Shown piece by piece: positions 15,114 through 38,008 of a DNA stretch of 38,008 nt. The notes beneath the pieces were generated by a model that saw only the letters and a list, made by a program, of their open reading frames with translations, searched no databases and was not told the DNA's origin. Location of the stretch: positions 1 through 38,008 of the IMG/VR virus record IMGVR_UViG_3300025102_000098; one strand, given 5' to 3'. Source of the DNA: a virus. Numbering within the stretch: position 1 is the first letter of the stretch; every line of letters begins with the position of its first letter. A program made the position numbers and the translations under genes.

Positions 15114-15123
15114 TTTTCCCACC

Positions 15124-15651
15124 TCACAGGCGGGCATAGACTTGCTCAATCAAACCCGCAATTTCATCAATTGCACCCAACTGACCTTGCGTTGCGTTCT
15201 TTTTCAAATCCATAAGTGAATCTTCAATTGGTTTTACACTTGAGAAATGTCCACCTGAATGAGTAAGATGCATATGTAGTGAAGATGCATTGACATCATA
15301 ACCTGTTTGTGCTACACTAGGCATTTTTGCAACTTCTGAAATGAATGTTCTTTTTGTTCCTTCTTCAGTATATGGCATTACTTGATTAGTACCAAATCCT
15401 GCTGCTCTATTTGATTCACCTGATACTTCATGGAAATGAGGCATACCATTACTTACATTAGGTTCAACTTGATATTTCTTAATGTCTTTTTCTTTCTTAG
15501 GATTACAAGTAGGGCAATCATCTTCTTTACACCCCATTTTACAACCCATACGATTGACGTTCTTTTCAATACCTAATTCTTTTTCAATAGATTTTAGTAC
15601 GCTTAGTAATCTTCCTTCAGGGGTTTCTTTCATTGGGTCAAAATATTTCAT
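15124..15651 (-). CDS. Cys-rich small head-cluster protein, unknown
   Basis: A 175-residue protein with GGAGG eight bases before ATG 15651. Residues ~34-50 hold five cysteines in CKMGCKEDDCPTC, a likely metal site. The middle is His/Ser/Asn-rich (MPHFHEVSGESNRAAGFGT), with a second His cluster in LHMHLTHSGGHF. The C-terminal 40 residues are helical (QLGAIDEIAGLIEQVYARL). It overlaps the preceding gene's stop. No family is recognised; a minor virion component is plausible from position. Confidence 0.65.
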   Translation of the reverse strand: MKYFDPMKETPEGRLLSVLKSIEKELGIEKNVNRMGCKMGCKEDDCPTCNPKKEKDIKKYQVEPNVSNGMPHFHEVSGESNRAAGFGTNQVMPYTEEGTKRTFISEVAKMPSVAQTGYDVNASSLHMHLTHSGGHFSSVKPIEDSLMDLKKNATQGQLGAIDEIAGLIEQVYARL

Positions 15652-15866
15652 CTATATGCCTCCGTATATGCTCTCATTAAATCTCTACCATCAAGATCTA
15701 GTAGTGTTGCCACATTTCTAACTGCCGACATTACATCCATCCCTTGTTCTACTAAATCTCTTACTTCTGCAACAAAAGCCGCAACACCTTCCGGCCCTGA
15801 ATTATCAACAGCATTACCTATCGGTAAATCTTCTTTAACAAGACCCCACGCTTCTTCAAAACTCAT
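15648..15866 (-). CDS. Tagged small helical protein (SFEEAWGLVK N-terminus)
   Basis: A 72-residue protein starting MSFEEAWGLVKEDLPIG, a member of the shared N-terminal tag set (consensus MTAFDKAWxIVK). The rest is helical and slightly acidic (AFVAEVRDLVEQGMDVMSAV, then LLDLDGRDLMRAYTEAYR). The start codon shares one base with the previous stop (TAATG). It lies in the cluster between portal and protease. The tag suggests delivery to, or assembly in, the same compartment as the other tagged proteins; the body has no recognised family. Confidence 0.7.
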   Translation of the reverse strand: MSFEEAWGLVKEDLPIGNAVDNSGPEGVAAFVAEVRDLVEQGMDVMSAVRNVATLLDLDGRDLMRAYTEAYR

Positions 15867-16186
15867 TATCTCATCTCACTTTCTAAGTCTTGCCACTCTC
15901 TTAATTCATCATGTCGAGATTTAGTAATCATATCGCCGCTACCTGAAAATGGGCCAACATTAGTTGCCATTGGATTAACATCTCTATTGAGGGGGTCAAA
16001 TGTTTCATCTGCATGAGGAGTAATGAATGCTTGCCACCCATTTCTCTTCATCATAATTGTAGGATCTTCTGCTGCTTTGATTAAATCAGCGTTTTCTAAT
16101 TCAAGTTGTTGAACTTGAGCCTTTAGAAGTTTCACTTCTTCTATCATCTCTTTTAGTAATTCAACAGATTCTGCTTCTGATGACAT
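15866..16186 (-). CDS. Coiled-coil protein, unknown
   Basis: A 106-residue protein whose first 45 residues form a clear heptad pattern (VELLKEMIEEVKLLKAQVQQ, then LELENADLIKA). The second half is polar with FITPHADETFDPLNRD and ends in charged residues (WQDLESEMR). It overlaps both neighbours at start and stop. A coiled coil in a portal-protease cluster could act in scaffolding or as an internal core protein; that is inference. Confidence 0.65.
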   Translation of the reverse strand: MSSEAESVELLKEMIEEVKLLKAQVQQLELENADLIKAAEDPTIMMKRNGWQAFITPHADETFDPLNRDVNPMATNVGPFSGSGDMITKSRHDELREWQDLESEMR

Positions 16187-16683
16187 TACATTCGCCTCAT
16201 ATTTCCTTGAGGACTAAAAACAGGGCTTGCTGTTCCCGCCATTAGTCTTTGATTTCCTGTTGGACTCATAGATTGCATAGGATCATTCATTGTAACAGAA
16301 CTATGGCCTTCATTTACTTGTAGTGCTGCTGCTTTAATTTCAAGTAAAATGCCACTTAATTTATGAAGTTTTGCTTGGATTGGACTTAAAGCATCAGTAA
16401 CAACCCCCGCTTTTGCTTGTTGTGATATGGCTTTGTGAACTTGCTGTATCAAATCTCCTTGCATATCAAACGAGTCTATTAATTGGTGAATTGCTTCGCC
16501 AACCCCTGAATAATCTCCTTCTCCCGGTGTTAATGGCATTGTTGCACCATTTGGGCCGGGTGTATTCATAGGAGGTTGTTGACCCATAGATGCAGCCATA
16601 GGGTCATTTTTGATGAGCAAACTATCAGATATTTGCAAAGCCCTTAATCGGTCTGCAATTGAACCTGTTTGTTTCCATGTCAT
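16186..16683 (-). CDS. Met/Pro-rich protein with central helices, unknown
   Basis: A 165-residue protein with a near-perfect ribosome site (GAGGTGAT) before ATG 16683. Central helices (AIHQLIDSFDMQGDLIQQVH ... LHKLSGILLEIKAAALQ) are flanked by disordered Met/Pro/Gly-rich ends containing two NDPM motifs (NDPMAASMG and NDPMQSMSP). Similar DPM motifs occur in the genes at 16694-17038 and 29359-29991. It may form an internal virion or scaffold component; no family is recognised. Confidence 0.65.
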   Translation of the reverse strand: MTWKQTGSIADRLRALQISDSLLIKNDPMAASMGQQPPMNTPGPNGATMPLTPGEGDYSGVGEAIHQLIDSFDMQGDLIQQVHKAISQQAKAGVVTDALSPIQAKLHKLSGILLEIKAAALQVNEGHSSVTMNDPMQSMSPTGNQRLMAGTASPVFSPQGNMRRM

Positions 16684-16693
16684 CTAAATCACC

Positions 16694-17038
16694 TCAATAT
16701 ACAATGTGTGGTCTGTAAATCTTATCTGTTCGACCTGCACGAACAACACCCAATGCAATAGCACCGTCATTTGCATGGAAGTCGTTTTCTGTATTGACGT
16801 GTTTGATAATAGCCCCTAAATCTTGGTCGGTAGTGGTATTAGCCATCTGTTTTGCAAGACTATCATGCAAATCTAAATCACTAGATACTACTGCTAATGC
16901 ATTCAAAGCATCCTTCAAATGTTTCGCTATATCATCTCTATTATTCAAATCAATAGCCTTTTGCATTGCATCAATTGATGCTTGCGCTTTTCGTGCCATT
17001 GGATCCATTTTGCTTATTATTCCAAACCCTTCGCTCAT
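16694..17038 (-). CDS. Small helical protein, possible distant tag variant
   Basis: A 114-residue protein. ATG 17038 is chosen because AAGGTGA lies six bases upstream; an in-frame GTG three codons earlier overlaps that site. The N-terminus MSEGFGIISKMDPMARKAQ faintly resembles the shared tag (WGIVK changed to FGIISK), too weak to count firmly. The body is helical and Asp/Ala-rich (DALNALAVVSSDLDLHDSL), ending in a basic strand (RAGRTDKIYRPHIVY). Function unknown. Confidence 0.6.
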   Translation of the reverse strand: MSEGFGIISKMDPMARKAQASIDAMQKAIDLNNRDDIAKHLKDALNALAVVSSDLDLHDSLAKQMANTTTDQDLGAIIKHVNTENDFHANDGAIALGVVRAGRTDKIYRPHIVY

Positions 17039-17068
17039 GTCGCTCACCTTATTCTAGTTATACCATGC

Positions 17069-17341
17069 TTAATGAGAATTGCCCTTGCCCTCACCACGTT
17101 GCCCGCCTAATCCTAGACGGTTTAATCGAGCATCAATTATCTTTTCAGATGATGATTTCATGTCTCTCTTATCGCCTTTTTTGCTTGAAACACTTGTGCC
17201 ACCTTCGTTACGTTTTACATATTTAGGAGATGAACCTGCTGTATCTCTAAATCTTTGGCTTTCGTCTTGTAATTGACGTAGTGGTGGTATCTCGTGAGGG
17301 ATGGCCTTTACCATTTTCCAAGCCTTCTCAAATGCGGTCAT
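17069..17341 (-). CDS. Tagged basic disordered protein (MTAFEKAWKMVK)
   Basis: A 90-residue protein starting with the shared tag. After the tag it is basic, Ser/Gly/Lys-rich and probably disordered (GGTSVSSKKGDKRDMKSSS; ends GLGGQRGEGKGNSH). Its ATG overlaps the previous stop (ATGA). The positive charge would suit DNA binding inside a capsid, in line with a packaged internal protein, but there is no specific motif. It immediately follows another tagged gene downstream of the portal. Confidence 0.75.
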   Translation of the reverse strand: MTAFEKAWKMVKAIPHEIPPLRQLQDESQRFRDTAGSSPKYVKRNEGGTSVSSKKGDKRDMKSSSEKIIDARLNRLGLGGQRGEGKGNSH

Positions 17342-17637
17342 ATATCATCCATCCATTCATTATAACAATCAGGACATACCATATCCCAATACCTTACTTT
17401 GCCTGTGTTTTGTTCACACAAAGGGCATTGAAGATGCTGATTATTTAATTGTTCTTTCGCAGAAATTGAATCAATAATCCAATCGGCTTCTTCGGGGTCA
17501 AAATTAGGGTTATCCCAATTGGCTTCATGACATTGAGAGCAAGCCAATGCAACATAACGAACTACACCCTTTGATCCGCAATCAGAACAATTAGAATCCG
17601 CTTTTGCAATATCCCAAGCCTTCTCAAATGCGGTCAT
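17338..17637 (-). CDS. Tagged double zinc-ribbon protein (MTAFEKAWDIAK)
   Basis: A 99-residue protein: the shared tag at residues 1-12, then two zinc-ribbon units. The first has CSDC and CSQC (about residues 17-36), the second CPLC and CPDC (about 71-92), separated by an acidic helical linker (PEEADWIIDSISAKEQLNNQ). It starts four bases inside the end of the portal gene, with GAGGATGAG as ribosome site. Zinc ribbons of this kind bind nucleic acid or protein. This shows the tag joined to a compact folded cargo. Confidence 0.75.
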   Translation of the reverse strand: MTAFEKAWDIAKADSNCSDCGSKGVVRYVALACSQCHEANWDNPNFDPEEADWIIDSISAKEQLNNQHLQCPLCEQNTGKVRYWDMVCPDCYNEWMDDI

Positions 17638-19151
17638 TCTAACTCATCCTCCTCAGATTTTTGAACAGGTGGTGCTACGGGTGGTGCGCCCCCGCCGCCT
17701 TGTGCTGCCGCAGCCTCTTGCTGTTTTGCTTGGATTTCTTCGGCAGACGGCTCTCTAAAGTCAAAGTTCAGATACTTATCATCAATCTGATCTCTTAACA
17801 TAGCCTCATATCCTGCTTGCTTCATCTGCATCATGTTACGGATAGCCATCTCATCTCGGCGCAGTTGCATGATTTCATCTTCTTCTTCATGTGGTGATAG
17901 AGTTAATGTCCATTCTGTAATACTAAATGCTTCCATGATTGCAGGGAACACAATACGGTTATACACGGATTGAGCATATGATATTGCCCTATTACTTACA
18001 ACAATCTGCATACCCTCATTATTCAAACCACCGCCCGATACATCATTCATGAATACATTTGATACACCATAGTATGCAGATATACGCTGTCTAATATCAT
18101 CTTTGATTGGTATGTATTGTAACTCTTCAAGCGTGTCCATCATACGAACATACTCTATTCCACCTCTACCTGATTCTGTTTCAACACCTATGGTCGGCAC
18201 ATAGTTAGGATCACGTTCAAGATGTTCTTGGATATTTCTTGCTGTTCTTTCGACAGTTTCCATGTTTGATGACTTGATAACCATGATACCTCTAGGCATT
18301 CTTCTCTTTTGGTATGCTGAATAAACATAGTTATCCATAGCAATCAATGTATTGACTTGTCTCCACATAGTAGCAACAGGACTTCGACCATACAGTTTCG
18401 ATGGCGACCATTTGCTAATGTGTATCACTTCACCCTCAGTATATACTTGCCCGTTTCCAACACCTGCAAGATTCATGTAATGAATTGGCACAACAGGCAT
18501 ACCCGATACAGGGCATTTGCCTTTGGGGTCGCTTGTTCTAAATGAACGGTCAATAAGGCTAGTATATTGTGTGCCTCCTCTAATTCCTCTTTTATCTGAA
18601 AGAATACGCATGAATATAGGGTCAGCCCTTGATACTTCACGAACACGGAAAAATTGAGGTTGCTTAGTCTCAGGATCAACAAAGTATTCTTTTGTAAGAA
18701 TTATGTAGGCATCATCTACTATATTCAAATCCATTTCTACTTCACGAAGAACATCTACAAAGTTTTGAGTCATTCTATTGCCGCCTTTCAAGATTGCATC
18801 TGCATATTCGATTTGGCCTCTATCCGGTTTTCGCACTTCTCCGCCACATGATTTACATTCTTGCAGTTGTTGTTGATACTCTTCCCCGCATTCTTTGCAC
18901 TTGCAAACAAACTTAGCATCCCAATCCCAACCTTTTCTGAATGTTTCAACAGAAAGATGTTGTAAAATAGAACGTAAGACCATACATTCGTAAGCCGCAG
19001 CATACAATGCAGGTATAGTAATTCCTTGTAATAATGCAGGTTCTTGAATACCTTGTGTAAATAATGGCATGGATGGAATAGGTGTGTTATACCTCTCCAT
19101 ATCTACTCCAATAGCAGAAAACAATCTCTCCATTTTTTTGTCATCAACCAT
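17634..19151 (-). CDS. Portal protein with inserted zinc ribbon
   Basis: A 505-residue protein two genes downstream of the large terminase, of portal length. Portal-type features include the N-terminal wing (residues 30-75), a central QVYTEGEVIHISKWSP segment followed by LYGRSPVATMWRQVNTLIAM, a PIKDDIRQRISAYYGV stem region with NVFMNDVSGGGLNNEGMQ, and a helical crown from ~440 (IMQLRRDEMAIRNMMQMKQ). It forms the dodecameric DNA channel and terminase dock. Residues 83-102 hold five cysteines (CKCKEC ... CKSCGG), a zinc ribbon inserted in the wing, unusual for portals generally. The C-terminus is a disordered Gln/Ala/Pro/Gly tail ending in acidic residues. Confidence 0.88.
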   Translation of the reverse strand: MVDDKKMERLFSAIGVDMERYNTPIPSMPLFTQGIQEPALLQGITIPALYAAAYECMVLRSILQHLSVETFRKGWDWDAKFVCKCKECGEEYQQQLQECKSCGGEVRKPDRGQIEYADAILKGGNRMTQNFVDVLREVEMDLNIVDDAYIILTKEYFVDPETKQPQFFRVREVSRADPIFMRILSDKRGIRGGTQYTSLIDRSFRTSDPKGKCPVSGMPVVPIHYMNLAGVGNGQVYTEGEVIHISKWSPSKLYGRSPVATMWRQVNTLIAMDNYVYSAYQKRRMPRGIMVIKSSNMETVERTARNIQEHLERDPNYVPTIGVETESGRGGIEYVRMMDTLEELQYIPIKDDIRQRISAYYGVSNVFMNDVSGGGLNNEGMQIVVSNRAISYAQSVYNRIVFPAIMEAFSITEWTLTLSPHEEEDEIMQLRRDEMAIRNMMQMKQAGYEAMLRDQIDDKYLNFDFREPSAEEIQAKQQEAAAAQGGGGAPPVAPPVQKSEEDELE

Positions 19152-20391
19152 TTATCATCACCGCCTCTCTTTTCCTTGTCATCTCTTCGTCATCAATTCT
19201 TTGAGATTTTAGTAATTGTATTTGTTCTGCTTGGCTCATATTTTCATATGCTAAAACCAAAAGAGCATCTTCATCGCCCCTTAGACCTTTCAACATTTTT
19301 CTTGCGTCAGGTGAGTGTCCATTAAGATATGGTTCTGCTAATTCTAAGGCTTTCTTTACTGCTGATTCTCCGTTTATAACAATCTTATTTGAATTAGACG
19401 TGATATTAGTAGTGTCTAATTCTTTGCATAGTGCGTCTGCATACCACGGTGCAGTAGGCGCATGAAAACCTAATTCAATTCTAGGGTTAAGTCTAGTATC
19501 CATCTTGAATTTTGAATTGTTTTCAATCAAACCTGCAATAAACCGATCTGCATCTTTAATCAATACATCTCTTCTTTTTATGTCATAGAATAAACCTCTA
19601 CCTACTGATTTACTAAATTGCCCTACTGATATTAAATCGAATAAGAAACCATGCGATTTTATCAACGAAGAGATTTCAGCCGGACTTGCTTGAATTCCAT
19701 ATGATTTCAATGTTTGAGCATTCAATGCACCACGAGCATATATTACTTCTCGACATTTTGTTAGTAGATTCCTTTCACGATTAGATAGGCGTTCTGATTT
19801 GTCTATTGTTGTAGTCCATAACAATGCGGCTTTTTCCTTCCCTTGTTCATCTGATGATGTCCATGTTTTTACGAACCTTCTAAATGGCAAATCAAGCCTA
19901 TCTGAATGTTTATTCAAAGCATCATAATCAAAATCAGTAAGAGGCAACTCATCTACAAGATTAGGAGATACGCCTTTGAAATGACTAATTATTGCTTGCT
20001 TCTCCATTTTTAGTAACCCTTGTATGCTATCTAATGTCCTCAAATCTTTTGCTTTGATTAATATCTCACTTAATTCTCTACCTGTCATACCAAAGTTATC
20101 AGTAAACCATGTTTTGCTTATTGGAGGAGGTGCAGTAGCCGGTAATACTGTACCGGGTTGTTCAGTAGGTGCAGAACTGCCTTCTTTGTCTGTACCTTCA
20201 ATACCTGCATTGGCTCTTGCATCTACGGCATTTCTTTGAGCATCTTCTTGCTTTTTCTTCTCTTGTGCCGCAGTTAATGCTTGTTGAGCCATGTCTATTT
20301 CTTGTTGTGCAAGATTATTTTCTGCAAACTTAATTATAGAATCAGACAAAGATTCTACACCATTTATGGGTTCAAGATATTCCTTACGCAT
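19144..20391 (-). CDS. 415-residue protein between terminase and portal, unknown
   Basis: It overlaps the large terminase by 8 bases and the portal by 8 bases, so expression is coupled to both. Residues 1-60 form a Gln/Ala/Glu-rich coiled coil (QQEIDMAQQALTAAQEKKK), followed by a Pro/Thr/Ala linker to ~95 and a folded domain rich in Lys and Leu (WFTDNFGMTGRELSEILIKA; RRFVKTWTSSDEQGKEKAAL shortened). The C-terminus is helical with basic residues. No catalytic motif is visible. The place suggests a packaging accessory or portal partner. Confidence 0.7.
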   Translation of the reverse strand: MRKEYLEPINGVESLSDSIIKFAENNLAQQEIDMAQQALTAAQEKKKQEDAQRNAVDARANAGIEGTDKEGSSAPTEQPGTVLPATAPPPISKTWFTDNFGMTGRELSEILIKAKDLRTLDSIQGLLKMEKQAIISHFKGVSPNLVDELPLTDFDYDALNKHSDRLDLPFRRFVKTWTSSDEQGKEKAALLWTTTIDKSERLSNRERNLLTKCREVIYARGALNAQTLKSYGIQASPAEISSLIKSHGFLFDLISVGQFSKSVGRGLFYDIKRRDVLIKDADRFIAGLIENNSKFKMDTRLNPRIELGFHAPTAPWYADALCKELDTTNITSNSNKIVINGESAVKKALELAEPYLNGHSPDARKMLKGLRGDEDALLVLAYENMSQAEQIQLLKSQRIDDEEMTRKREAVMING

Positions 20392-21799
20392 CTGCCCACC
20401 CTAACCTTTTTTGCCATGTTGGGCCATCTAATATTACGATACTTTCTCTATATTCTTTAGTTGCTTGAACTGCTAATGCTAATGCTATTACCATATCATC
20501 GTGCGCCCCTAAACTTTCCATTTTACCATTAGCAAGCATGGTAAACATAGACAGTTCGTTTAGTAGAGCGTTCATAAGCCTTCTAGTAGAACCTTCGTCT
20601 TTATACGGGATTATGAGATGTTGTTGCTCAAGGTGAAGTTGTAAAGTATGCATGAGTGCTTCTTTTTTCATACGACTCATGTTGAATGGTTTTATCGGTA
20701 AATCGCTTATTTCTTTAAGCACTTGATTGAATGCCATAGCGAAGTTATTTGTTTCTAATTCTATTATAACAGGATTAAATCTAGCATTCAATTCTATGAT
20801 TTTCTCTATCTGCTGATTAAAATTCATATTCTTTTCATGGTGAACATGAACTACCCGCTTATGCCTATTTTCATCCATTGCAATAACTAGCATACAGGTG
20901 TAGTCAGCCCTTCTATCTGCACTTATCGCAGGATCCCAACCAATGTAATAATTCAGATTTTCTTCAGTTTCAGGATAGTAAGATAACGCATATTCTTCAT
21001 CTTTTGCTGCTTCAAGAACATCTTCAGGGAATAAACTTGAATCACTTGCTATTGGTTTACATAGATACTCTCTTGTAAATGCAATAGATGTCATTTCACC
21101 TCTTCTAACATTCAACGCATCTAAAGACCATCTCTCAGGCCATAGTGGTTCTCCTGTTACTTCATTGATTGCAGGGTATTCTCTTACACAATACCCATCA
21201 AGACCTTTTAATTCTGAGTATAAATCAGTAAACGAGAATGGAGTACCTACAACGCACATTTGGGCAGTATGGTGAAGAACAGGTAAAAGAGCAGTATAAA
21301 ACCATGTAGATATAGCCTTTAATTGTGTATCTGCTTCACTAGATAGAATATCGTCTAGTACCACTATGTCAGGGTGCGCCCCTCTCACCGCTTTACCGAT
21401 AGACATAGCACGAATAGAAGATTTATTGGTGAAACGGAATAATTGTTTTGCCCATCCTCTTGCAGGTTTTAGATGCTGCAAAGCAGGAGTTGTCTCAATC
21501 AATTCATTCATTTTACCCATGTGGTCTATTGACTGATGCTGACTGTGGCTGAAGAATAGCACTTCAGTATTAGGATTGTATGCCATTTTCCATAATAGAT
21601 ATACTCTAAAGAATACAGATTTGCCATGATCTCTACTTGCTATAACACATACTTTGTTATTGTTTTCAGCGTTTTCATACCATTCCTTATGGAAATGTGC
21701 TAATTGAAATCCGCATATATCTTCAAAAAAGAACTTGAAATCACGCTTCCCCATTTCCCAATCTATCTTACTTGTGAGGTCATTGATGCCTTCACTCAT
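20384..21799 (-). CDS. terL: Terminase large subunit
   Basis: A 471-residue motor that translocates DNA into proheads and cuts concatemers. ATPase: Walker A variant ASRDHGKS at ~54-61, Walker B IVVLDD at 145-150 with the catalytic acid next in ILSSE, and coupling motif VVGTPFS near 200. Nuclease (RNase H-like): YIGWDPAIS near 287, acidic strand VIIELETNN near 340, and GAHDDMVIALALA near 440. All expected acidic residues are present, so it should be active. The start has GGGGTGG upstream. The recognised SF2-type ATPase/nuclease order and length are typical. Confidence 0.96.
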   Translation of the reverse strand: MSEGINDLTSKIDWEMGKRDFKFFFEDICGFQLAHFHKEWYENAENNNKVCVIASRDHGKSVFFRVYLLWKMAYNPNTEVLFFSHSQHQSIDHMGKMNELIETTPALQHLKPARGWAKQLFRFTNKSSIRAMSIGKAVRGAHPDIVVLDDILSSEADTQLKAISTWFYTALLPVLHHTAQMCVVGTPFSFTDLYSELKGLDGYCVREYPAINEVTGEPLWPERWSLDALNVRRGEMTSIAFTREYLCKPIASDSSLFPEDVLEAAKDEEYALSYYPETEENLNYYIGWDPAISADRRADYTCMLVIAMDENRHKRVVHVHHEKNMNFNQQIEKIIELNARFNPVIIELETNNFAMAFNQVLKEISDLPIKPFNMSRMKKEALMHTLQLHLEQQHLIIPYKDEGSTRRLMNALLNELSMFTMLANGKMESLGAHDDMVIALALAVQATKEYRESIVILDGPTWQKRLGWADA

Positions 21800-22928
21800 T
21801 TTTCCACCCCGTAGGCAACAAACTCATATTATCAACAACGGGGGTATCTGTATTTTTGAAAACCGATGAAGGCAGCAATGACAAATCATCCCCCTCGTTT
21901 GTCTCAAAACCTTCGATTGCGTTTGGTTGTTCTTGTTTGATTAGGTCAATAGGAGGGGTAAATGCAGGTGGTGCAACAAAACCCTTTGGTCTTTCTTTTT
22001 TTATTGAAAAGGCAGACATATCATAGAATGGATTGGCAAACGGGTTCTCGACTATTGTTTGAATGCCTTTTTCAAAAACTTCATCATATTCATCATATCC
22101 ATGATGTTCAACTAAATCGTCTTGATTATTATAGAATATCTGTTTCGCTCGTGTATGGGAACGATGTTGTTCATCTTCGACTATCTCGTGTAGGAATTCA
22201 ATAACATCAGAAGGAGTATTTGCATTAATCGCACCTTCATTCAAAATATCTCCTATGGTTTTATTGTTAGAAAAAGTTTTGGCAGGTTTCTTATTTTGAC
22301 CTAATCCAACCTGTTCGGCTACATTGATACTGTCTTGAATCGTTTGTTCTAGTGATGTTCTTTCACGAGCCGCTTTTATTTCTTCAGTTACAGTTTTAGG
22401 TTTATCGGGCATAACAACTTCGGGGTCTGCACCGCTTAAATCTGCTAACGGTATTTCTGCAACAACCTTTTCATTAGATTCGGGCAAATCAGATTCGGCA
22501 TCGGGTACATTTATCAAAAGCATATCAATCAATTCAGCAATGTTTTGCTCTCGTGTTGCTTCTCTTATCTTCTCCGCCCGATTTTCTTCAATTGCTTCCT
22601 CATAGGTTTTTGTATCCATTTGAAGATACTTCGGTTCGTCATGAACATTGTCTGTCGAACCTTTATCATATACTTCATGTTCTGATTCAGGATGATTTTC
22701 AACAGTTACTCCCTCGCCTTCTCCTTCTATTGGCGGTGCTTTAACTTCAGTTGTAGCATTGGTTCTTATGTTATCAAGCGCAGCAGCGTGTCTTGGCGGT
22801 TTAGGGGGTGTCATTTTTGGTTGGTATCTATCTAAACTTGAATCAAACCAATCAAAAACAGATTTTTCTAAACTCATTTCGCCTTTGGAAAATTCCCAAG
22901 CAACATCAAAAGGGTCAGGAACGGGCAA
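21792..22928 (-). CDS. Acidic disordered protein with tag-like N-terminus (PFDVAWEFSKGE)
   Basis: A start at TTG 22928 gives 378 residues beginning (M)PVPDPFDVAWEFSKGE; GGAGG lies nine bases upstream. A GTG ten codons earlier would put that site inside the gene. The FDVAWEFSK segment aligns with the shared tag FDKAWGIVK. The rest is Glu/Asp/Pro-rich and low complexity (IEGEGEGVTVENHPESEHEV) with a few helices (AEKIREATREQNIAELIDM) and no catalytic motif. It overlaps the terminase start by 8 bases. Acidity and the tag suggest a scaffold-like or internal virion protein. Confidence 0.65.
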   Translation of the reverse strand: MPVPDPFDVAWEFSKGEMSLEKSVFDWFDSSLDRYQPKMTPPKPPRHAAALDNIRTNATTEVKAPPIEGEGEGVTVENHPESEHEVYDKGSTDNVHDEPKYLQMDTKTYEEAIEENRAEKIREATREQNIAELIDMLLINVPDAESDLPESNEKVVAEIPLADLSGADPEVVMPDKPKTVTEEIKAARERTSLEQTIQDSINVAEQVGLGQNKKPAKTFSNNKTIGDILNEGAINANTPSDVIEFLHEIVEDEQHRSHTRAKQIFYNNQDDLVEHHGYDEYDEVFEKGIQTIVENPFANPFYDMSAFSIKKERPKGFVAPPAFTPPIDLIKQEQPNAIEGFETNEGDDLSLLPSSVFKNTDTPVVDNMSLLPTGWKNE

Positions 22929-24237
22929 ACCTAATCGCCTCCGTTGAATCAATTTCACGATAATAAGATTGCTGCTTTTGTAAAGAATATAAATCGTGTA
23001 TCTTTGATTCTAAATCATAACTGTTTCTAACTTGCTGTCCACTCGCAATTGCTTGCATATCTTTTTGGCCTTGTTTTCTTTGATTCCGATTATACAACCC
23101 TCTCGCCGCACCGGACATACCAAATGTAAGCATATTTGACATCAACCCTGTACCAAAACCGCCTTTGGTATTCATTTTTGCTTCGGCGGCATCTACTGAT
23201 TGCTGACCCAACTTTTTCTGTGCTTCTTGTTGGGCGTAATTATTACCCGCAGGAGGTGTAGTACCCGCAGGGGGCGTAGTGCCATCGGCAGGGGGCGTAG
23301 TGCCATCGGCAGGGGGATTTTGATTGTTAGGATTATTAATCCCATCTCTTCTTTTATCACCAATTGCTTGTTGTCTGCCGTCATTATATTGTGCTGCTTG
23401 TTCTCGTGTTTGTTCGGCAGTTAGACCTTCTCTATTCGCACCGCCCTGTGTTACATTATCCCAAACGCCTTGCAAACCTCCTTGATCGCCTGTTAGGGGC
23501 TTGCCTTGTCCACCCAAAACCTTCGGCGTAACTGATTCCAAATAGCCTCTACCCATATTTTTGAGATTAGACATTGCACCACCTGCTACGGGCATATATG
23601 CAGGGGCGTTAGGGTCAGGGGGGGTTGAATTATTTTGGTTTTTATTGTAAGCATTCAAAGCAAGATTACCTAATCCACCTGTTGCCATTCCCAATGCAGC
23701 GTGTGCGCCAAATTTTGCTGCACCTTTTGCTGCACCTTTCATTCTATCCATCATACCCGGTTTTTGATTAACAAGTTGTTCGGGTTGGTTTACATTTGCC
23801 GAATCTCTTGGTTGTGTTCCTGTATTATCAACAGGGTTCAATGAACCAAAATCAGTTTGAACCTTTTCTTGGTATCCTTCGTAGGGAGATTTCCCATTCC
23901 ATGCTCTTTCATAAGCAGTACCCCTCGCTTGTTTAATCATGAAATAATTGATTAACTCATCTTTTGATTTGGTGGTTAAATTGGTTGCAACGCCATTAAC
24001 TGCTCGGTTATCTGCTTGTTGAGCATCAAACTCAGCAGTAGGATTGATTACTTTTGTTTTTGTTTCCTTGCTTGCAACTTGCCCTGTTTTGTTGTTTATA
24101 TCTTCAGTAATAGTGGTTACTCTCTTGATTGGTTGGCCTGTCTTATCATCCAAACCATCTCCATTAGCATCTTGTTGTTCGCCACCTTGCTGCATTTGTT
24201 TCTCAAACAAACGTGCTTGAAGAATCAAATTATCCAT
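22915..24237 (-). CDS. 440-residue Gln/Asn/Gly-rich protein with EF-hand-like loop and PPADGTT repeats
   Basis: Residues ~24-34 form a calcium-loop-like DANGDGLDDKTG motif (DxNxDGxxD, as in dockerin or EF-hand loops). A middle Gly/Ala-rich amphipathic segment (GAAKGAAKFGAHAALGMATG) could contact membrane. Later come tandem PPADGTT/PPAGTTP repeats (~300-325) and a Gln-rich helical end. TAYERAWNGKSPYEG near 107 recalls the AW core of the shared tag but is not N-terminal. It overlaps the upstream gene by 8 bases. Probable virion or internal protein; no family recognised. Confidence 0.6.
   Translation of the reverse strand: MDNLILQARLFEKQMQQGGEQQDANGDGLDDKTGQPIKRVTTITEDINNKTGQVASKETKTKVINPTAEFDAQQADNRAVNGVATNLTTKSKDELINYFMIKQARGTAYERAWNGKSPYEGYQEKVQTDFGSLNPVDNTGTQPRDSANVNQPEQLVNQKPGMMDRMKGAAKGAAKFGAHAALGMATGGLGNLALNAYNKNQNNSTPPDPNAPAYMPVAGGAMSNLKNMGRGYLESVTPKVLGGQGKPLTGDQGGLQGVWDNVTQGGANREGLTAEQTREQAAQYNDGRQQAIGDKRRDGINNPNNQNPPADGTTPPADGTTPPAGTTPPAGNNYAQQEAQKKLGQQSVDAAEAKMNTKGGFGTGLMSNMLTFGMSGAARGLYNRNQRKQGQKDMQAIASGQQVRNSYDLESKIHDLYSLQKQQSYYREIDSTEAIRFARS
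23247..23316 (-). repeat. Tandem 21-base repeat encoding PPADGTT
   Basis: The 21-base unit GCAGGGGGCGTAGTGCCATCG (plus-strand reading; described here by position 23267-23287 and 23288-23308) occurs twice with no mismatch visible, followed by a third partial copy and preceded by shorter diverged copies. It encodes a Pro/Ala/Asp/Gly/Thr linker in frame. Replication slippage would change linker length in seven-residue steps without a frameshift. Confidence 0.8.
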
Positions 24238-26068: not shown

Positions 26069-26073
26069 CCCAT

Positions 26074-27408
26074 TCACCTCTTACTAACAATATTGAATGC
26101 TAGTGAGGTATCATCAAAGCGATAACCTGCACTATCTTCATCTCGGACTTCTGTTGGCCCTGTTGGTGCAGATGAACGCTCGCTGCTTGCTTGCCCGCCT
26201 TTCTTTGAATGTTCATCTAATACAGGAGAGGATTTTGTTAATTTGTTTAATTTATCTAATAACTTTTGAATTTTGTTCTTTAGAGATAATATCTCGGTTC
26301 TTGACAAAGATTGTGCTTTTGCTACAAGAGGGTCAGATGTTCCTAATGGGTCGCCTATTGCCCCACGAGCAAGCCTGTCTGCTCTAACTCCTGAATTCAT
26401 GTTTGTTCCCATTTTTGGAACTCTAGGCATTCTAGTCGAACCTTTTGTTCCGCCTATGAACCCGCCTCTTGTGCTTTGTGAAGATATACCCGTTCCGCCT
26501 GTTGAACGGTGGTGAGTCATGGCTCTAGGTAATGCGCCTTGCTCTCTCGCCATTTTAGCATTAGCCAATTTACGTTGATATGCCACCGGATCACGAAGTC
26601 TTAACGGAATACCTTCTGCTCTTGATGCCCCACGCATTCTTAGAGGAATACTTCTCGATACGGGGTTGAATGATTGTCGTTTGGAAGAAGTGTCGAGTTG
26701 CAATTTAGCACTCGCTGCTCGTCTTTTAGTTTTTGACTTTGGTTCTCTTCCACCGGATGTGTTGTGCTTACCGCCCACTTTTTTGCCTCTTTTTCCCTTT
26801 CTTTTCTTTTTTCGTCTTTTCTTTCGTTTGGATTTTTCTTCATCCTCATCACTCTCCTCATCTTCGTCATATTTTCGACCTTTGTATTTCCTTCTTGCCT
26901 TTAACAAATCAAAAGCATCGGATATATCGTCATCGAAACTAGCCCTTATTGCACCTCTCGATGGATGGCCGAATGTAATGTTTGGGGTATCGCTTCTAAC
27001 AGAACCCACGTTTGCACCTGCTGATGCGGATAAGCCGTTAGCCCCAATGTCCACACCTAACCTACTTTCAAGTAATTGATTTTCATTCTCCATCATAGGG
27101 CTTCGACCTATTTCTTGGTCTATCTTACTTGGCCTTACATCTACATGAGTAAGACCCGGAACTAATTCTCTTAGTGCTTGTTCTCGCCTTTTTTTCTTAT
27201 CTCGTTGATCACGGCTTTCGCCATCTTCGGGCGTTTGCCTTGTATGATGAGATAAGCCATCTGCGTTCTCATTGGGATTAACATCTAAATCACCATAGTT
27301 ACCCATTTCTCTACCATTGAAGCCGCCCGTAAACTCTTGTGTTCTTGGCCGCCATAGATTACCTATATCATTAGGAGTCGAACTTACTTTGATGATTTCA
27401 TCACTCAT
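26074..27408 (-). CDS. Basic-cluster protein with APTGPTE motif
   Basis: A 444-residue protein: polar N-terminus, an acidic patch then a highly basic cluster (EDEEKSKRKKRRKKKRKGKR, ~residues 180-215), Arg/Gly-rich middle (RGGFIGGTKGSTRMPRVP), a helix near 370 (RTEILSLKNKIQKLLDKLNK) and a C-terminal segment with SAPTGPTEVRDEDSAGYRF. That last motif recurs near the C-terminus of the gene at 11757-15113. The basic cluster would bind nucleic acid, so it may be an internal DNA-associated protein. Overlaps the upstream stop by ATGA. Family unknown. Confidence 0.6.
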   Translation of the reverse strand: MSDEIIKVSSTPNDIGNLWRPRTQEFTGGFNGREMGNYGDLDVNPNENADGLSHHTRQTPEDGESRDQRDKKKRREQALRELVPGLTHVDVRPSKIDQEIGRSPMMENENQLLESRLGVDIGANGLSASAGANVGSVRSDTPNITFGHPSRGAIRASFDDDISDAFDLLKARRKYKGRKYDEDEESDEDEEKSKRKKRRKKKRKGKRGKKVGGKHNTSGGREPKSKTKRRAASAKLQLDTSSKRQSFNPVSRSIPLRMRGASRAEGIPLRLRDPVAYQRKLANAKMAREQGALPRAMTHHRSTGGTGISSQSTRGGFIGGTKGSTRMPRVPKMGTNMNSGVRADRLARGAIGDPLGTSDPLVAKAQSLSRTEILSLKNKIQKLLDKLNKLTKSSPVLDEHSKKGGQASSERSSAPTGPTEVRDEDSAGYRFDDTSLAFNIVSKR

Positions 27409-28633: not shown

Positions 28634-28666
28634 GTCATCTTAACTCCTAACCATCATTATTGGGTC

Positions 28667-29068: not shown

Positions 29069-29078
29069 TGAAGGGGCA

Positions 29079-29345: not shown

Positions 29346-29358
29346 ATTCATCATCTCC

Positions 29359-29991: not shown

Positions 29992-30007
29992 TTTTATTCC
30001 TCATTTT

Positions 30008-30949: not shown

Positions 30950-30990
30950 AGCCCTGTCAGACCTGTTAGACTCTTTAAGATAGCGGCTTT

Positions 30991-31674: not shown

Positions 31675-31728
31675 ATGCCCTGCGGCAATTATTATATGAC
31701 CTGCTAAGACTGTGCTACTGATGGGGTT

Positions 31729-31956: not shown

Positions 31957-31970
31957 ATGCAGCCCCCCAC

Positions 31971-32414: not shown

Positions 32415-32415
32415 T

Positions 32416-32556
32416 TTATTTTCCCTCACTCTCTAAATGGCGGAAATACATTTCAATAGCATGATTTAGGTATGAAGATTTAGATTCTCTACCTCTTTTT
32501 GACTCCATCAAATGCCATAGATCATCTCTTAGGATAATCGAAACGTGCTTCCCCAT
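32416..32556 (-). CDS. Ribbon-helix-helix transcription regulator (46 residues)
   Basis: A 46-residue gene. It reads MGKHVSIILRDDLWHLMESK, then RGRESKSSYLNHAIEMYFRH and LESEGK: a beta strand (VSIIL), helix A, a Ser/Ser turn, and helix B (SSYLNHAIEMYF). This is the ribbon-helix-helix fold of CopG/Arc/MetJ-like dimeric DNA binders, where strand residues contact operator bases. It heads the membrane-GTPase module and may autoregulate it. Its upstream gap (32557-32621) contains GATATATG and an AT-rich stretch that may hold the operator. Confidence 0.75.
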   Translation of the reverse strand: MGKHVSIILRDDLWHLMESKRGRESKSSYLNHAIEMYFRHLESEGK

Positions 32557-32621
32557 AGAGCGTTGTGATATATGTTAGGGTTATTACGGTTGTCATGTCT
32601 GACGGTTCAGAATAGTGTTTT

Positions 32622-32648
32622 CTAACTAATAAAATCAAATGCGGTCAT
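32622..32648 (-). pseudogene. Truncated tag minigene (MTAFDFIS stop)
   Basis: ATG 32648 overlaps the previous stop as ATGA, the usual arrangement here. It reads M-T-A-F-D-F-I-S then TAG. The first five codons match the shared tag start exactly, followed by an early stop. This looks like the remains of a tagged gene whose body was deleted, next to the RHH gene. It could also be a translated leader peptide, but there is no sign of that. Confidence 0.6.
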
Positions 32649-33673
32649 TCATAGCCCTCTTCTTCTTTCAAATAGTTTTTCATATAGGCATCGAAACTTT
32701 TTGTGTCTAAATGATCATCTCTAAACTCTTCATCATTCATGGCAGATATTATTTTTCGCTTTTCCAATTCAAATAATCGTTTATATCCTTCACCGTCAGC
32801 CATTCCGGTTTTAGGGTCATAACCATAATTATTATCTATACCTTTTTCAGCCAAAGCACGATGAACCAAATTGTTGATTGTTTGTGCGGCATTCATAACA
32901 TACGCTTGATTTACTTTTTGTTGGTGTTGATCTTCATCAACAAAATTTAACATATCAAATATCTCCATATCATCTTCATTATATTCTCCCCTACCTATGG
33001 AATTGTAGCGTTCTTCAAGATTGGCTTGTAATTCATCATCTAATATTTTTTCCCAATTAACATCATCCCAAGTTCTTTCATTATCTTTTAGTTCCTGTTC
33101 AATCGCACTACCCTCAAGCATTTCAATCATCATTTCTGCAAAAGAATCATGGTCTAAATTGTCGTTAGATATGGCATTTTCTACAAAATCTTTTCTCATT
33201 TGATACAATCCATAATCGTTATCAAAATGCAAACCTACACGCCATGTAGTATTTTCACGCCTAACATTAGGATCAGGATGATAGCCTATCTGCCCGTTTC
33301 TCTTCATAGCATCAATCATGGCTCGCTCTTGAGTATCCATTAACTCATCGCTTTGTTCGGATGTCAAACCTTCATAACCACTATATTTTGTTTCAAAATC
33401 CGGCACTTCATCAAGTATATTCTGCATTGGCTCTATGTCGTCAAAAGGAACACCTAATGCATCCATAGCCTCAAATGCTTGATTAAATGCATCCTTTTGT
33501 TCGTTAGGAACAATTTCTACATTTTTTGAATTTTCATTAACATATCTTTGAGCGCATTCGGGGTAATGTGAGAAATACCAATTGCCATCTCCTATTTCTC
33601 CACATAGAGGGCATTTTATCTGCCCATCTTCTTCTTTGACTAAACCCCACGCTCGGTCAAAGGCTTCGCCCAT
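32645..33673 (-). CDS. Tagged 342-residue acidic protein with zinc finger (GEAFDRAWGLVK)
   Basis: N-terminus MGEAFDRAWGLVKEEDGQIK is a variant of the shared tag. A zinc finger follows at once: CPLC then HYPEC (Cys near 21, 24, His ~36, Cys ~40, like a C2H-C finger). The remaining ~290 residues are acidic and helical (QKDAFNQAFEAMDALGVPFD; KILDDELQANLEERYNSIGR), with LTSEQSDELMDTQERAMIDA. LTxEQ also occurs in the tagged gene at 35703. It is the largest tagged protein of the accessory arm. Confidence 0.75.
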   Translation of the reverse strand: MGEAFDRAWGLVKEEDGQIKCPLCGEIGDGNWYFSHYPECAQRYVNENSKNVEIVPNEQKDAFNQAFEAMDALGVPFDDIEPMQNILDEVPDFETKYSGYEGLTSEQSDELMDTQERAMIDAMKRNGQIGYHPDPNVRRENTTWRVGLHFDNDYGLYQMRKDFVENAISNDNLDHDSFAEMMIEMLEGSAIEQELKDNERTWDDVNWEKILDDELQANLEERYNSIGRGEYNEDDMEIFDMLNFVDEDQHQQKVNQAYVMNAAQTINNLVHRALAEKGIDNNYGYDPKTGMADGEGYKRLFELEKRKIISAMNDEEFRDDHLDTKSFDAYMKNYLKEEEGYE

Positions 33674-33827
33674 GATGCCCGTTTATGTCAATCCTTGATA
33701 AGGTGTAGGGAGAGGGGGGAGAGATGAAAAACAAGATGATGAGTCCAAGAACCTTATCGAGCCATGCCAATGATGATAAGATATATCCTCTCCCTACAAT
33801 ATTTGTAAAAAGACAATCATTAATCAA
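33674..33827 (-). promoter_or_regulatory. Noncoding gap with 12-base inverted repeat and AT-rich TATA-like segment
   Basis: This 154-base gap is the largest clearly noncoding stretch between genes. TGTAGGGAGAGG at 33704-33715 is repeated in perfect inverse at 33787-33798. Inside it, GATAAGG at 33697-33703 pairs with CCTTATC at 33752-33758. On the minus strand GGATATATCTTATC (about 33775-33788) resembles a TATA element. It may hold a promoter with operators for the 32645-33673 gene, a terminator, or a replication signal. Confidence 0.4.
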
Positions 33828-33941
33828 TCATTCTTGAAATAACGTAGAAAACGCCCAAGCAAACGGATATATCATTACTATTAGTAAGGCTAATGCAAGA
33901 GCCGAAAAAAACTCTTTATACAATTCTGCTTGTAACTTCAT
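33828..33941 (-). CDS. 37-residue membrane micropeptide
   Basis: A short gene from ATG 33941 (overlapping the previous stop as ATGA) to TGA 33828-33830. It reads MKLQAELYKEFFSALALALL, then IVMIYPFAWAFSTLFQE. One hydrophobic helix spans residues ~12-31 with a charged N-terminus. The start overlap matches real genes in this window; a chance frame is the alternative. Confidence 0.5.
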   Translation of the reverse strand: MKLQAELYKEFFSALALALLIVMIYPFAWAFSTLFQE

Positions 33942-34633
33942 TCCCAATCTTCAGGTCGTGTGATTCGTAGTTTAGGTTTAGGTTTTGCGTTTTCTCGTCT
34001 TGCTCTACTCAAAGCACGATCTAATGCGTTTCCATTACTTCTTGTTGGTAGTGGTGTTCTGTTTCTCAAAGCCTCTCTTGCTTTATCATTACGAGCATTT
34101 AGCCTATCAATATCTTCTTGACTCCATTTTGCTTTCTCTCGATTTTCTTTGAAATTAAAACTTGTATCCCAATCTGCTGCTTTAGCGATACCCCAAGCCG
34201 ATTCAAAACTATCCTTGCTTCTGTTTAGGTCTTGCCAATCAGGAGGGAAGTTTCTTTTAGGATCAAAACTACCTTTCCCATGATGGGGGTATTCACGATT
34301 ACTAAATATTGCTTCTTCCATACGTTCTTTTTCTTCTTCCATACGTTCTTTTTCTTCATCTTCGTATTCTTGAACTATTGCAGAAGCACATTCAGGACAA
34401 TGTGCGCCACTTTGACTCATTACATCATTATATGCGGGATGTATATCATCATCCATATCGCCCCGATAACCGGGATAACCGTATTCATCATTTGTCATAC
34501 ATTCTTCACAAATGTCTTTACCGCATCTTTCACAACCATATTGATTACCATCAGGGATTGAGACTCCGCAATCACCGCATTCAGGATCATCATCATACTT
34601 AGCAACGCCCCAAGCCTTGTCGAATGCTGTCAA
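33938..34633 (-). CDS. Tagged zinc protein with a second internal tag
   Basis: The start is TTG 34633, giving MTAFDKAWGVAKYDDD; GGAGG lies eight bases upstream and the codon overlaps the previous stop (TTGA). A zinc region follows with CGDC, CERC, CEEC and CPEC pairs (residues ~18-85), then a Glu/Arg/Met repeat (KERMEEEKERMEE, 21-base tandem repeat at 34313-34354). At ~140-152 SFESAWGIAKAADWD is a second copy of the tag. The C-terminal third is basic (REKAKWSQEDIDRLNARNDK). Two tagged genes may have fused here. Confidence 0.8.
   Translation of the reverse strand: MTAFDKAWGVAKYDDDPECGDCGVSIPDGNQYGCERCGKDICEECMTNDEYGYPGYRGDMDDDIHPAYNDVMSQSGAHCPECASAIVQEYEDEEKERMEEEKERMEEAIFSNREYPHHGKGSFDPKRNFPPDWQDLNRSKDSFESAWGIAKAADWDTSFNFKENREKAKWSQEDIDRLNARNDKAREALRNRTPLPTRSNGNALDRALSRARRENAKPKPKLRITRPEDWE
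34313..34354 (-). repeat. Perfect tandem 21-base repeat (KERMEEE)
   Basis: Positions 34313-34333 and 34334-34354 are identical 21-base units encoding a Glu/Lys/Arg/Met heptad, part of a charged helix. Two exact copies indicate recent slippage. Confidence 0.85.
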
Positions 34634-35088
34634 AAGAATTGCCTCCAATTACCTTTTTCATCCATTTCTGCTTGGCCGCCACAATGCCCACATCTACCTG
34701 TTGATTTCATCCATTTCTTAGCACGACCCATACCTCCTTGTCCGAAGGCCATTTCATTCATTAATTCACCATATAACTCTTCTATATCTTCATCAGGATT
34801 ATTTTTTATTTCTTCTTTAAGGCGTTCTTCCATGTAATCTCTTTTATCTTGTTGGCTCATGTTACAATCGCATGACTGAGATTGATACCAATGTTGTGCT
34901 AGTGCTTCATCCTCATCCATTTCAGTAGGTTGTTCTGCTCTCCATTTAGAATAAGGCAAATCGGTACGAGGATATTGATCATCCATATCTCCACTAAAAT
35001 AAGCCTCTAACCACTCATCTAATGAATTGAAATATTCAGAATTGAAAGGACTTTTAACGACATCCCAAGCCTTGTCGAATGCTGTCAT
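34630..35088 (-). CDS. Tagged acidic zinc protein (MTAFDKAWDVVK)
   Basis: ATG 35088 gives 152 residues beginning with the tag; a GTG three codons earlier has no ribosome site. The body is acidic (SLDEWLEAYFSGDMDDQYPR; KRDYMEERLKEEIKNNPDED shortened) with CDC near residue 77 and CGHCGG near 137, possibly one zinc site. The C-terminal part is basic (GRAKKWMKSTG). It sits between two other tagged genes with stop/start overlap downstream. Confidence 0.75.
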   Translation of the reverse strand: MTAFDKAWDVVKSPFNSEYFNSLDEWLEAYFSGDMDDQYPRTDLPYSKWRAEQPTEMDEDEALAQHWYQSQSCDCNMSQQDKRDYMEERLKEEIKNNPDEDIEELYGELMNEMAFGQGGMGRAKKWMKSTGRCGHCGGQAEMDEKGNWRQFF

Positions 35089-35093
35089 ATTAA

Positions 35094-35255
35094 TCACGCA
35101 CCTATGTGGCCGGACATCCCGCCTGAATATACATATTCTCTTTCATCTGCCCTTTTACATCTTTGAGAACAATAACTGCTGTTAGACATACGGGGTTTGT
35201 TACACCTTCTACAAGTGTTTTTTGAAATATCCCAAGCCTTGTCGAATGCTGTCAT
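35094..35255 (-). CDS. Tagged 53-residue zinc-finger protein
   Basis: A short gene from ATG 35255 to TGA 35094-35096. It begins MTAFDKAWDISKNTCRRCNK and continues with CSQRC and basic residues, ending GGMSGHIGA. The four cysteines (residues 15, 18, 29, 33) form CxxC-x10-CxxxC, the pattern of FCS/MYM-like small zinc fingers. Its 24-base start segment is identical to that of the gene at 35700 across the tag core. It is the smallest intact tagged protein. Confidence 0.8.
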   Translation of the reverse strand: MTAFDKAWDISKNTCRRCNKPRMSNSSYCSQRCKRADEREYVYSGGMSGHIGA

Positions 35256-35256
35256 C

Positions 35257-35700
35257 TTAATCATCACTCGCCGTGCGTGTTACATTATGCCACCGTTCAA
35301 CCCTCGGCCAATCCGCAGGTTCAACCCGTTGTATCCATTCAATCATATCCATATCGTGCAAGTCATCAGCCCTGTCATCTATCTCTCGTTGTAATTCCCG
35401 ATCACATGAAGTGTAAAATCCTTCCAACCCCTCATCCAATTGCCACTTTACGCCTTCGCAATACTCCGGCGTTCCGCCTATTTCATCACAGAATGTGCAA
35501 GGGATGACAAAACCATCAGGATGTTCAGGGGCATCTATCTGAGACAACAGCCCGCCGTGCAAAGGCGGATCATCCGGCCCATAAGAAAACTCATGGTATC
35601 TGTCGGCCATTTCCTGACTATCATGCACATCCCAATTGATGCGATTCTTTGGCGAACCATCTGCCTTCACGATTTCCCAAGCCTTGTCGAATGCTGTCAT
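35257..35700 (-). CDS. Tagged acidic protein with Cys pair (MTAFDKAWEIVK)
   Basis: ATG 35700 gives 147 residues. The GTG two codons upstream has no role. After the tag (MTAFDKAWEIVKADGSPKNR) the body is acidic with His/Asp-rich text (HDSQEMADRYHEFSYGPDD) and a cysteine group CTFC ... YC (~residues 70-83) plus a later Cys, a possible zinc site. Helical acidic section EIDDRADDLHDMDMIEWIQR precedes the end. Unknown function. Confidence 0.75.
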   Translation of the reverse strand: MTAFDKAWEIVKADGSPKNRINWDVHDSQEMADRYHEFSYGPDDPPLHGGLLSQIDAPEHPDGFVIPCTFCDEIGGTPEYCEGVKWQLDEGLEGFYTSCDRELQREIDDRADDLHDMDMIEWIQRVEPADWPRVERWHNVTRTASDD

Positions 35701-35702
35701 CT

Positions 35703-36041
35703 TCACATCTCCATTATTTTTTGCCTAAGTGCGATAAGAGCCTCGGCATTACCAATGGCTACCGCCTCGTCAAAACCACCTGAATCTCGTGCATCTCTCA
35801 TCTGTGCCACTTCATCGGTTGTAAGTCCTGTAATGCCTTCTTCTCTAATTACATCTATGAGTTGTTCATTGGTTAAACCGTGATAACCGGGTATATTTTC
35901 CGAAACTATGGCTAAAAGCCTCTCCATTGATTGATATGTTCCATCTCCATCTTCATCAACAGGTGGCCCTTCCATTCTTCTAGTAGGAGATACATATTCA
36001 TCACCCTTCACGATTTCCCAAGCCTTATCGAATGCGGTCAT
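35703..36041 (-). CDS. Tagged acidic helical protein (MTAFDKAWEIVKGDE)
   Basis: ATG 36041 is preceded by GGGAGAG; a TTG five codons earlier overlaps it. 112 residues: the tag, an acidic linker with DEDGDGTYQ (a partial Ca-loop look), and helices (SMERLLAIVSENIPGYHGLT; NEQLIDVIREEGITGLTTDE). The two LT(N/T)(E)-type motifs suggest an internal repeat of a short helical unit. No cysteines. Function unknown. Confidence 0.75.
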   Translation of the reverse strand: MTAFDKAWEIVKGDEYVSPTRRMEGPPVDEDGDGTYQSMERLLAIVSENIPGYHGLTNEQLIDVIREEGITGLTTDEVAQMRDARDSGGFDEAVAIGNAEALIALRQKIMEM

Positions 36042-36043
36042 AT

Positions 36044-36256
36044 CTATCTCTCCCAATCATGCGGCGGATCATGTCTATCAAAGAAATACTTAGAACCACT
36101 CCAACAATCCATACTACAAAACGGCCCTTTTTGTGAATCAAATGTTCTGCCCATGTAAATGCCATTATCCTTATCTATCATTTTACGACATCCAAGACAC
36201 GGTTCTTCATCCTCATCGTTCTTCACGATACCCCAAGCCTTGTCGAATGCCGTCAT
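36044..36256 (-). CDS. Tagged zinc-finger protein (MTAFDKAWGIVKNDE)
   Basis: ATG 36256 gives 70 residues; an upstream open extension of 29 codons covers the previous gene and is rejected because the tag marks the start. The body carries CLGC (residues ~20-23) and FCSMDC (~45-49), CxxC-x21-CxxxC, a FCS/MYM-like zinc finger, and ends in an aromatic/His-rich tail (FFDRHDPPHDWER). One base separates it from the previous stop. Confidence 0.8.
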   Translation of the reverse strand: MTAFDKAWGIVKNDEDEEPCLGCRKMIDKDNGIYMGRTFDSQKGPFCSMDCWSGSKYFFDRHDPPHDWER

Positions 36257-36257
36257 A

Positions 36258-36437
36258 TTAACACCCAAACTCTTGTCTAAACTTCTGCTCGGCTTCTTCC
36301 TTTGAATACCCTTGATACCTCTTTCTCTTACGCTCGCCATCAATTATGCAAGATACTTCGATAGTTTCACGCCCTACTGAAACAGAAACGGGGTTTTCTT
36401 CTTTCACGATTCCCCAAGCCTTGTCGAATATTGTCAT
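36258..36437 (-). CDS. Tagged 59-residue protein (MTIFDKAWGIVKEE)
   Basis: ATG 36437 gives 59 residues. The tag (Ala3 changed to Ile) is followed by a compact beta-alpha piece: PVSVSVGRETIEVSCIIDG, then ERKRKRYQGYSKEEAEQKFR, resembling the small strand-strand-helix of integrase Arm-type or AP2-like DNA-binding modules (YxGYSKEEAExKFxxE). That similarity is suggestive only. It ends GC and adjoins the next tagged gene. Confidence 0.7.
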   Translation of the reverse strand: MTIFDKAWGIVKEENPVSVSVGRETIEVSCIIDGERKRKRYQGYSKEEAEQKFRQEFGC

Positions 36438-37980: not shown

Positions 37981-38008
37981 TTCATCAACATCATTAATAT
38001 CGTCTGTA

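Follow-up and report, generated by a model that had tools for sequence, protein, structure and literature searches.

A recurrent peptide tag on unrelated proteins as a candidate capsid-loading signal in a virus group with a probable archaeal host

The virus record IMGVR_UViG_3300025102_000098, a stretch of 38,008 bases analysed in its whole length and referred to as the window, carries 13 copies of a short peptide tag on twelve open reading frames (ORFs). With a consensus of [TDS][ASP]F[DEN]xAWx[IVL][VLAT]K and a length of 11-12 residues, this tag is, at a probability of roughly 0.77 and as judged from sequence comparisons, a portable signal for loading proteins into the capsid, whose payload would be cut free by the prohead protease and ejected with the DNA. 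In the proposed mechanism, an amphipathic helix formed by Phe, Ala, Trp, two hydrophobic residues and Lys would dock on a component inside the prohead and thereby bring its carrier in ahead of genome packaging. The prohead protease, which belongs to the same S78-type family as that of HK97, would probably cut after the tag Lys, and the freed payload would enter the next host cell together with the ejected DNA. The initial annotation had proposed virion loading with a cut after the IVK region of the tag. This proposal is favoured by the splitting of a portal domain, the enrichment of Lys sites in head proteins, a cargo resembling injected proteins and the co-occurrence with one portal type, from which we infer the interior location, a receptor within the prohead, the cut and the ejection.

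A portal domain that is tagged when detached

In relatives with long portals (about 580-615 residues), a Gln/Gly-rich linker is followed by an additional domain made up of the final ~100 residues. The portal of the window is a short form of 505 residues without this C-terminal extension (17634-19151, minus strand; PF04860, phrog_18178), and the neighbouring tagged gene at 17069-17341 (minus strand, tag MTAFEKAWKMVK at 17341-17306) encodes the detached domain as its payload. Using a search profile of the domain that was built without the tag, 53 loci were found to have a fused version (34 distinct) and 35 portal-bearing loci a separate one (20 distinct ORFs), the clade of the window being among the latter. 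All 20 separate ORFs carry the tag in place of the link to the portal, and none of the 34 fused ones is tagged (Fisher p 3e-15). None of the loci found by the domain profile has both a fused and a separate domain, and no tag lies inside a portal ORF. Two apparent untagged separate tails, L055 and L075, were rejected as fused portals truncated by the edge of the stored DNA, at which their ORFs begin. In tailed-phage portals, the C-terminus normally points into the capsid. For this reason, the tag appears by analogy to stand in for a covalent anchor reaching into the prohead. Virion loading was accepted mainly because the portal-tail domain is tagged if, and only if, it is a protein of its own.

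The portals also bear on the fate of the tag. A hydrophobic-hydrophobic-Lys site lies ahead of the domain in 28 of the 34 fused portals, mostly followed by Arg (MMFK/RT, VFK/RD, DIWK/RN), and the tag Lys aligns at this junction in 13 of the 20 separate versions (VVK/RDGL, VAK/RSVR). Sites of this kind are also conserved at the N-termini of the major capsid protein (MCP; TDLLK/ADSPL) and of the protease (DFILK/S), as well as in the C-terminal part of the latter. In head-module proteins, 39 such sites stand against 17.0, a 2.29-fold enrichment compared with 0.94-fold elsewhere; in relatives, the values are 1.89 versus 1.02. The enrichment in head-module proteins is seen for Lys and not for Arg, Glu, Asp or Gln. 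In HK97, the MCP is cut at K103/S104 (PMC10275583). Due to the portal junction, the MCP and protease sites, the Lys enrichment in head proteins and this known cut, cleavage after the tag Lys is likely on sequence grounds; tags at C-termini would survive it.

Spread, modularity and payloads of the tag

A tag profile was built from the sites in the window, refined on relatives and used with a cut-off of at least 13 bits to scan 38 genomes or records. This search of related contigs, which the initial annotation had suggested, yielded 342 matches, and 35 of the 38 genomes or records have some. Since three column-permuted profiles gave only 1, 2 and 4 matches in the same scan, chance is excluded and the tag is real. 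Across 323 distinct contexts, Phe3 is found in 304, Ala6 in 289, Trp7 in 314 and Lys11 in 309, and the information drops toward background a few residues past the Lys. The helical hydrophobic moment of the consensus is 0.58, compared with a shuffle mean of 0.30, and 3% of shuffles reach this value. In the one confident cargo model, the tag is predicted as a separate low-confidence helix outside the folded domain. A chaperonin (ERAFDDAAGVVK) and a tape-measure protein among 144 representatives were profile false positives and were not counted as cargo; nearly all of the few false positives of the profile are without the Trp.

Genomes that were fetched by their MCP alone and not by the tag contain 19 (G049), 17 (G053 and G057), 10 (G041) and 6 (G056) tags. 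A DNA pattern for MTAF[DE]KAW matched 38 virus contigs, 26 of which encode this portal; with a second pattern (MTAFDTAW), 20 records were checked and the portal was encoded in 16. Cellular genomes, of which about 85,000 were searched, contained five stray matches to the first pattern. As far as these searches reach, the tag is rare outside viruses encoding this portal and capsid. Several tagged records without the portal share a thermosome with portal-bearing records, and the portal-less ones are probably fragments. The halovirus HVTV-1 has no tag according to the profile scan. Record G024, found via the DNA pattern, has no profile match in the 20 kb scanned; its internal pattern match was rejected as a true tag and is probably due to chance. 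Literature searches found neither a published description of this tag nor a described capsid-targeting signal in archaeal viruses.

The tag is modular. The 321 tagged ORFs in 35 records, about ten to twenty per genome, gave 318 usable bodies, which fall into 157 BLAST clusters, and no pair of payloads in the window matches by BLAST at E<1e-3, in agreement with the initial view that the bodies are unrelated. Met directly follows the tag Lys in 31 of the 323 contexts, while the figure for the fourteen positions beyond is about 9 (Poisson p 4e-9), an excess that looks as if the tag had been placed ahead of pre-existing start codons. One zinc module, ECKGCGLAHG(T/S)PNSEYCS, is found behind a tag at the N-terminus in G028 and behind an internal tag in G025 and G012. 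The tags are mostly N-terminal, as had been claimed, but internal positions, with several copies in one protein, and C-termini are found as well: two or more tags are present in 17 ORFs, and several ORFs are tagged within a few residues of the C-terminus. The tag thus departs from a T4-like restriction to N-termini. Targeting would therefore work without a free N-terminus, and in some proteins the tag would be retained. The carriers of the tag are not restricted to accessory cargo but include the conserved gene next to the terminase large subunit (TerL) and the detached portal tail.

Tags of unrelated payloads are more alike within than between genomes (0.299 versus 0.241, 0 of 200 permutations), and the next 20 residues show no such likeness. 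Within the window, the likeness is partly copied DNA: near-identical DNA (ACAGCATTCGACAAGGCTTGG) is common to the tag copies, and identical-residue pairs use the same codon in 62% versus 49% expected. Because copying as well as co-evolution with a receptor could produce this likeness, it was not used as proof.

Zinc ribbons, D12 DNA methyltransferases and domains of unknown function are the families recognised among the 144 tagged representatives, and most tagged ORFs have no recognisable family. Among the families that these representatives match most often, the first 25 of Pfam and the first 25 of PHROG, none is a replication enzyme family. One payload group in relatives comprises KptA-like proteins (profile E 8e-5 to KptA, with agreement from Foldseek), whose predicted fold is nearest to KptA in structural alignment (Z 9.5 over 90 residues). 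By sequence and predicted fold, this cargo is classified as ADP-ribosyltransferase. T4 packages the ADP-ribosyltransferase Alt (PMC9026906), and by analogy the cargo resembles proteins known to be injected.

Alternative readings and known systems

A narrower form of capsid loading would have the tag bind the portal, with the cargo placed at the portal vertex or ejection channel instead of throughout the scaffold core. The detached portal tail, which is the clearest tagged head protein, and the tagged genes adjoining portal and TerL would fit such a binding. However, ten to twenty tagged proteins per genome would have to compete for few portal sites, and this form is considered rather unlikely. 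Docking to a partner outside the virion, for example to a host protein or, within the infected cell, to a viral hub where early effectors would gather, is improbable. It would agree with the appearance of most payloads, which resemble effectors directed at the host or small zinc proteins, and with C-terminal and internal positions, as known from ordinary short linear motifs, but it explains neither why the portal tail is tagged only when detached, nor the tags on the conserved gene beside TerL, nor the Lys junction common to the fused portals. The invariant Lys and the enrichment of hydrophobic-hydrophobic-Lys sites in head proteins could also mean that the tag is only a processing site of the prohead protease and that each payload does its own targeting. 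This is quite improbable, considering that conservation is as strong for Phe and Trp as for the Lys, yet the head-protein sites DLLK, DFILK and MMFK are without the F..AW part, and that C-terminal tags exist. Finally, the near-identical DNA and the codon identity in the window could point to a tag selected mainly as DNA, i.e. a recombining 5' segment that aids translation start or gene swaps and encodes a peptide without a role. With internal and C-terminal copies in frame, residues conserved despite other codons and the portal split left unexplained, such a selection is very improbable.

Several observations also weigh against the loading signal with protease cleavage that is preferred here. 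Four of the 20 separate portal tails are offset at the junction, and a further three read VVEKYCGR and not VVKR. The hydrophobic-hydrophobic-Lys sites could partly reflect helix content, and cleavage after Lys would leave in place the tags directly before the stop codon (KSM, KQIA and KESR as last residues). That the portal tail lies inside the head is assumed by comparison with other portals. The expectation that many tags occur only together with this capsid set is supported by the portal counts of the tagged records, but tags are few in some genomes whose MCP is close (one each in G043 and G047).

The closest comparison is with T-even phages, whose internal proteins are a diverse set with only a capsid-targeting sequence in common (PMC3012670). 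In T4, ten residues hold both targeting and processing and are sufficient for packaging (PMC9026906). As in T4, a short peptide is common to unrelated proteins of one genome, here on 12 ORFs of the window and on 157 payload clusters overall, and an ADP-ribosyltransferase is among the T4 packaged proteins as well as among the tagged cargo. However, gp21 of T4 cuts after L/I-x-E, whereas the present tag ends in hydrophobic-hydrophobic-Lys, and the protease is of the gp21 type in T4 and a Peptidase_S78 (PF04586) here. Sequence and host domain differ as well, and the present tag is also internal and C-terminal, with ten to twenty carriers per genome and a detached portal domain among them. The tag therefore seems to work like the T4 capsid-targeting sequence without being a member of it, since the two are unlike in sequence, cleavage motif, protease family and rules of position. 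In phage P1, an N-terminal signal takes the anti-restriction protein DarB and a reporter into the head (PMC9024508). This is similar as far as descriptions can be compared, but the signal is described for DarB and not as a peptide that recurs on a dozen genes. Encapsulation peptides of bacterial microcompartments are short helices that are joined to cargo by disordered linkers and bring it into a protein shell (PMC12339742); this shell is not a virus capsid, and there is no prohead protease step. HK97 has a capsid of the same fold and a cut after Lys as proposed here, but there the cut falls in the scaffold domain of the MCP, and no cargo tag is described for HK97.

A more far-reaching possibility is an open modular delivery system, in which any gene gaining the 11-residue helix would become head cargo, the ten to twenty effectors per genome would change fast, and a Lys-specific prohead protease would separate polyprotein strings of tagged domains inside the head. 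This remains tentative, at somewhat less than even odds. If the loading signal is real, uncharacterised small genes of this virus group could be recognised by the tag as encoding proteins that the virion delivers. The tag would represent a capsid-targeting signal in archaeal viruses that is unrelated to that of T4, suggesting that variable cargo under one short address label has arisen more than once. A portable label of 11 residues could also serve in loading proteins into capsids.

Head module, probable host and tagged genes of the window

The head module of the window can be assigned to an archaeal-type tailed virus of the HK97 type, since MCP, S78 protease, portal and TerL are all present with archaeal-virus relatives. 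The S78-type protease (10318-11697, minus strand), already recognised in the initial annotation, is supported by PF04586 at 4e-10 and by related PHROG head maturation proteases, and has a scaffold-like C-terminal part. The earlier assignments of portal, MCP (9118-10296, minus strand; HK97-fold, SU10-type, SU10_MCP / phrog_24667) and TerL (20384-21799, minus strand; Pfam and PHROG searches) hold as well. A further head-module protein of 1130 residues (11757-15149, minus strand) has no match in Pfam or PHROG and contains ten hydrophobic-hydrophobic-Lys sites where 5.2 are expected.

In the phage collection, the portal matches solely viruses of Haloarcula, with HVTV-1, HCTV-5 and HCTV-1 among the best matches, and viruses of methanogens, the identity being 25-27%; this search did not yield a named magrovirus genome. 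Several related virus records encode an archaeal thermosome, a group II chaperonin (e.g. L227, 11543-13102, plus strand). Based on these portal kin and the thermosome, the host is most likely archaeal. From the haloarchaeal kinship and the thermosome, a host among the Poseidoniales is likely, which would make the virus a candidate magrovirus, and the virus family is probably marine with archaeal hosts.

All tagged genes of the window lie on the minus strand, in the accessory arm and close to the portal, as first described, as well as next to TerL. The eleven N-terminal sites of the initial annotation are all present at the coordinates given there. Its list was incomplete, as an internal copy was missed, and a variant reported at 22928 corresponds to a variant tag nearby, at 22916-22884. 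In the accessory arm, a gene encodes a small basic domain behind the tag (36258-36437, tag MTIFDKAWGIVK at 36437-36402), and its payload homologue in G010 is tagged too. It is followed by genes with a Cys-rich payload (36044-36256, MTAFDKAWGIVK at 36256-36221) and with an acidic helical payload (35703-36041, MTAFDKAWEIVK at 36041-36006), the latter with tagged homologues in G001 and G007. The tag MTAFDKAWEIVK recurs at 35700-35665 in the gene at 35257-35700. A zinc-ribbon-like payload (35094-35255, MTAFDKAWDISK at 35255-35220) has a tagged relative in L108, and the gene at 34630-35088 (MTAFDKAWDVVK at 35088-35053) has a tagged homologue in G038. The doubly tagged gene at 33938-34633, with zinc-ribbon cysteines, starts with TTG and has an N-terminal tag (LTAFDKAWGVAK at 34633-34598) in addition to the missed internal copy DSFESAWGIAK (34213-34181); structure prediction gave no confident fold for it (mean pLDDT 53). 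The gene at 32645-33673, with the site MGEAFDRAWGLVK at 33673 and the tag GEAFDRAWGLVK at 33670-33635, combines a zinc-ribbon-like start with a DUF7249/phrog_871 region.

The conserved gene adjoining TerL (21792-22958, site PDPFDVAWEFSK) carries the variant tag DPFDVAWEFSK. In an alignment of 11 orthologues, its middle is very variable and the motifs NPFANPF and LSLLP at the C-terminus are conserved; it is possibly a scaffold or core protein. Directly after the portal, a zinc-ribbon payload is tagged (17338-17637, MTAFEKAWDIAK at 17637-17602), and the gene at 15648-15866, with the tag MSFEEAWGLVK from 15866, has tagged orthologues. A basic protein at 26074-27408 (minus strand) has a degenerate site, DDISDAFDLLK (8.4 bits), at which the G041 orthologue has the tag ESFEDAWSISK.

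A look-alike at 36688, NDIFEEVWFSINK, was left uncounted because of one extra residue ahead of the Lys and a score of -1.4 bits; next to it is a Ca-binding-like motif (KPDYLDFDGDGDKKEPMKNA) of the protein encoded at 36443-36814 (minus strand). A D12 DNA adenine methyltransferase (36850-38008, minus strand) has a reading frame that is open to the contig end. Its G012 orthologue extends upstream into the tag DPFINAWEIAK, and the methyltransferase of the window may be tagged beyond the end of the record. At the start of the window (648-3530, plus strand), similar stretches such as SVEAIVTAPP...VIVLKVLSFAVISSTTKLI recur across ORFs, which suggests a repeat-rich gene on either strand.

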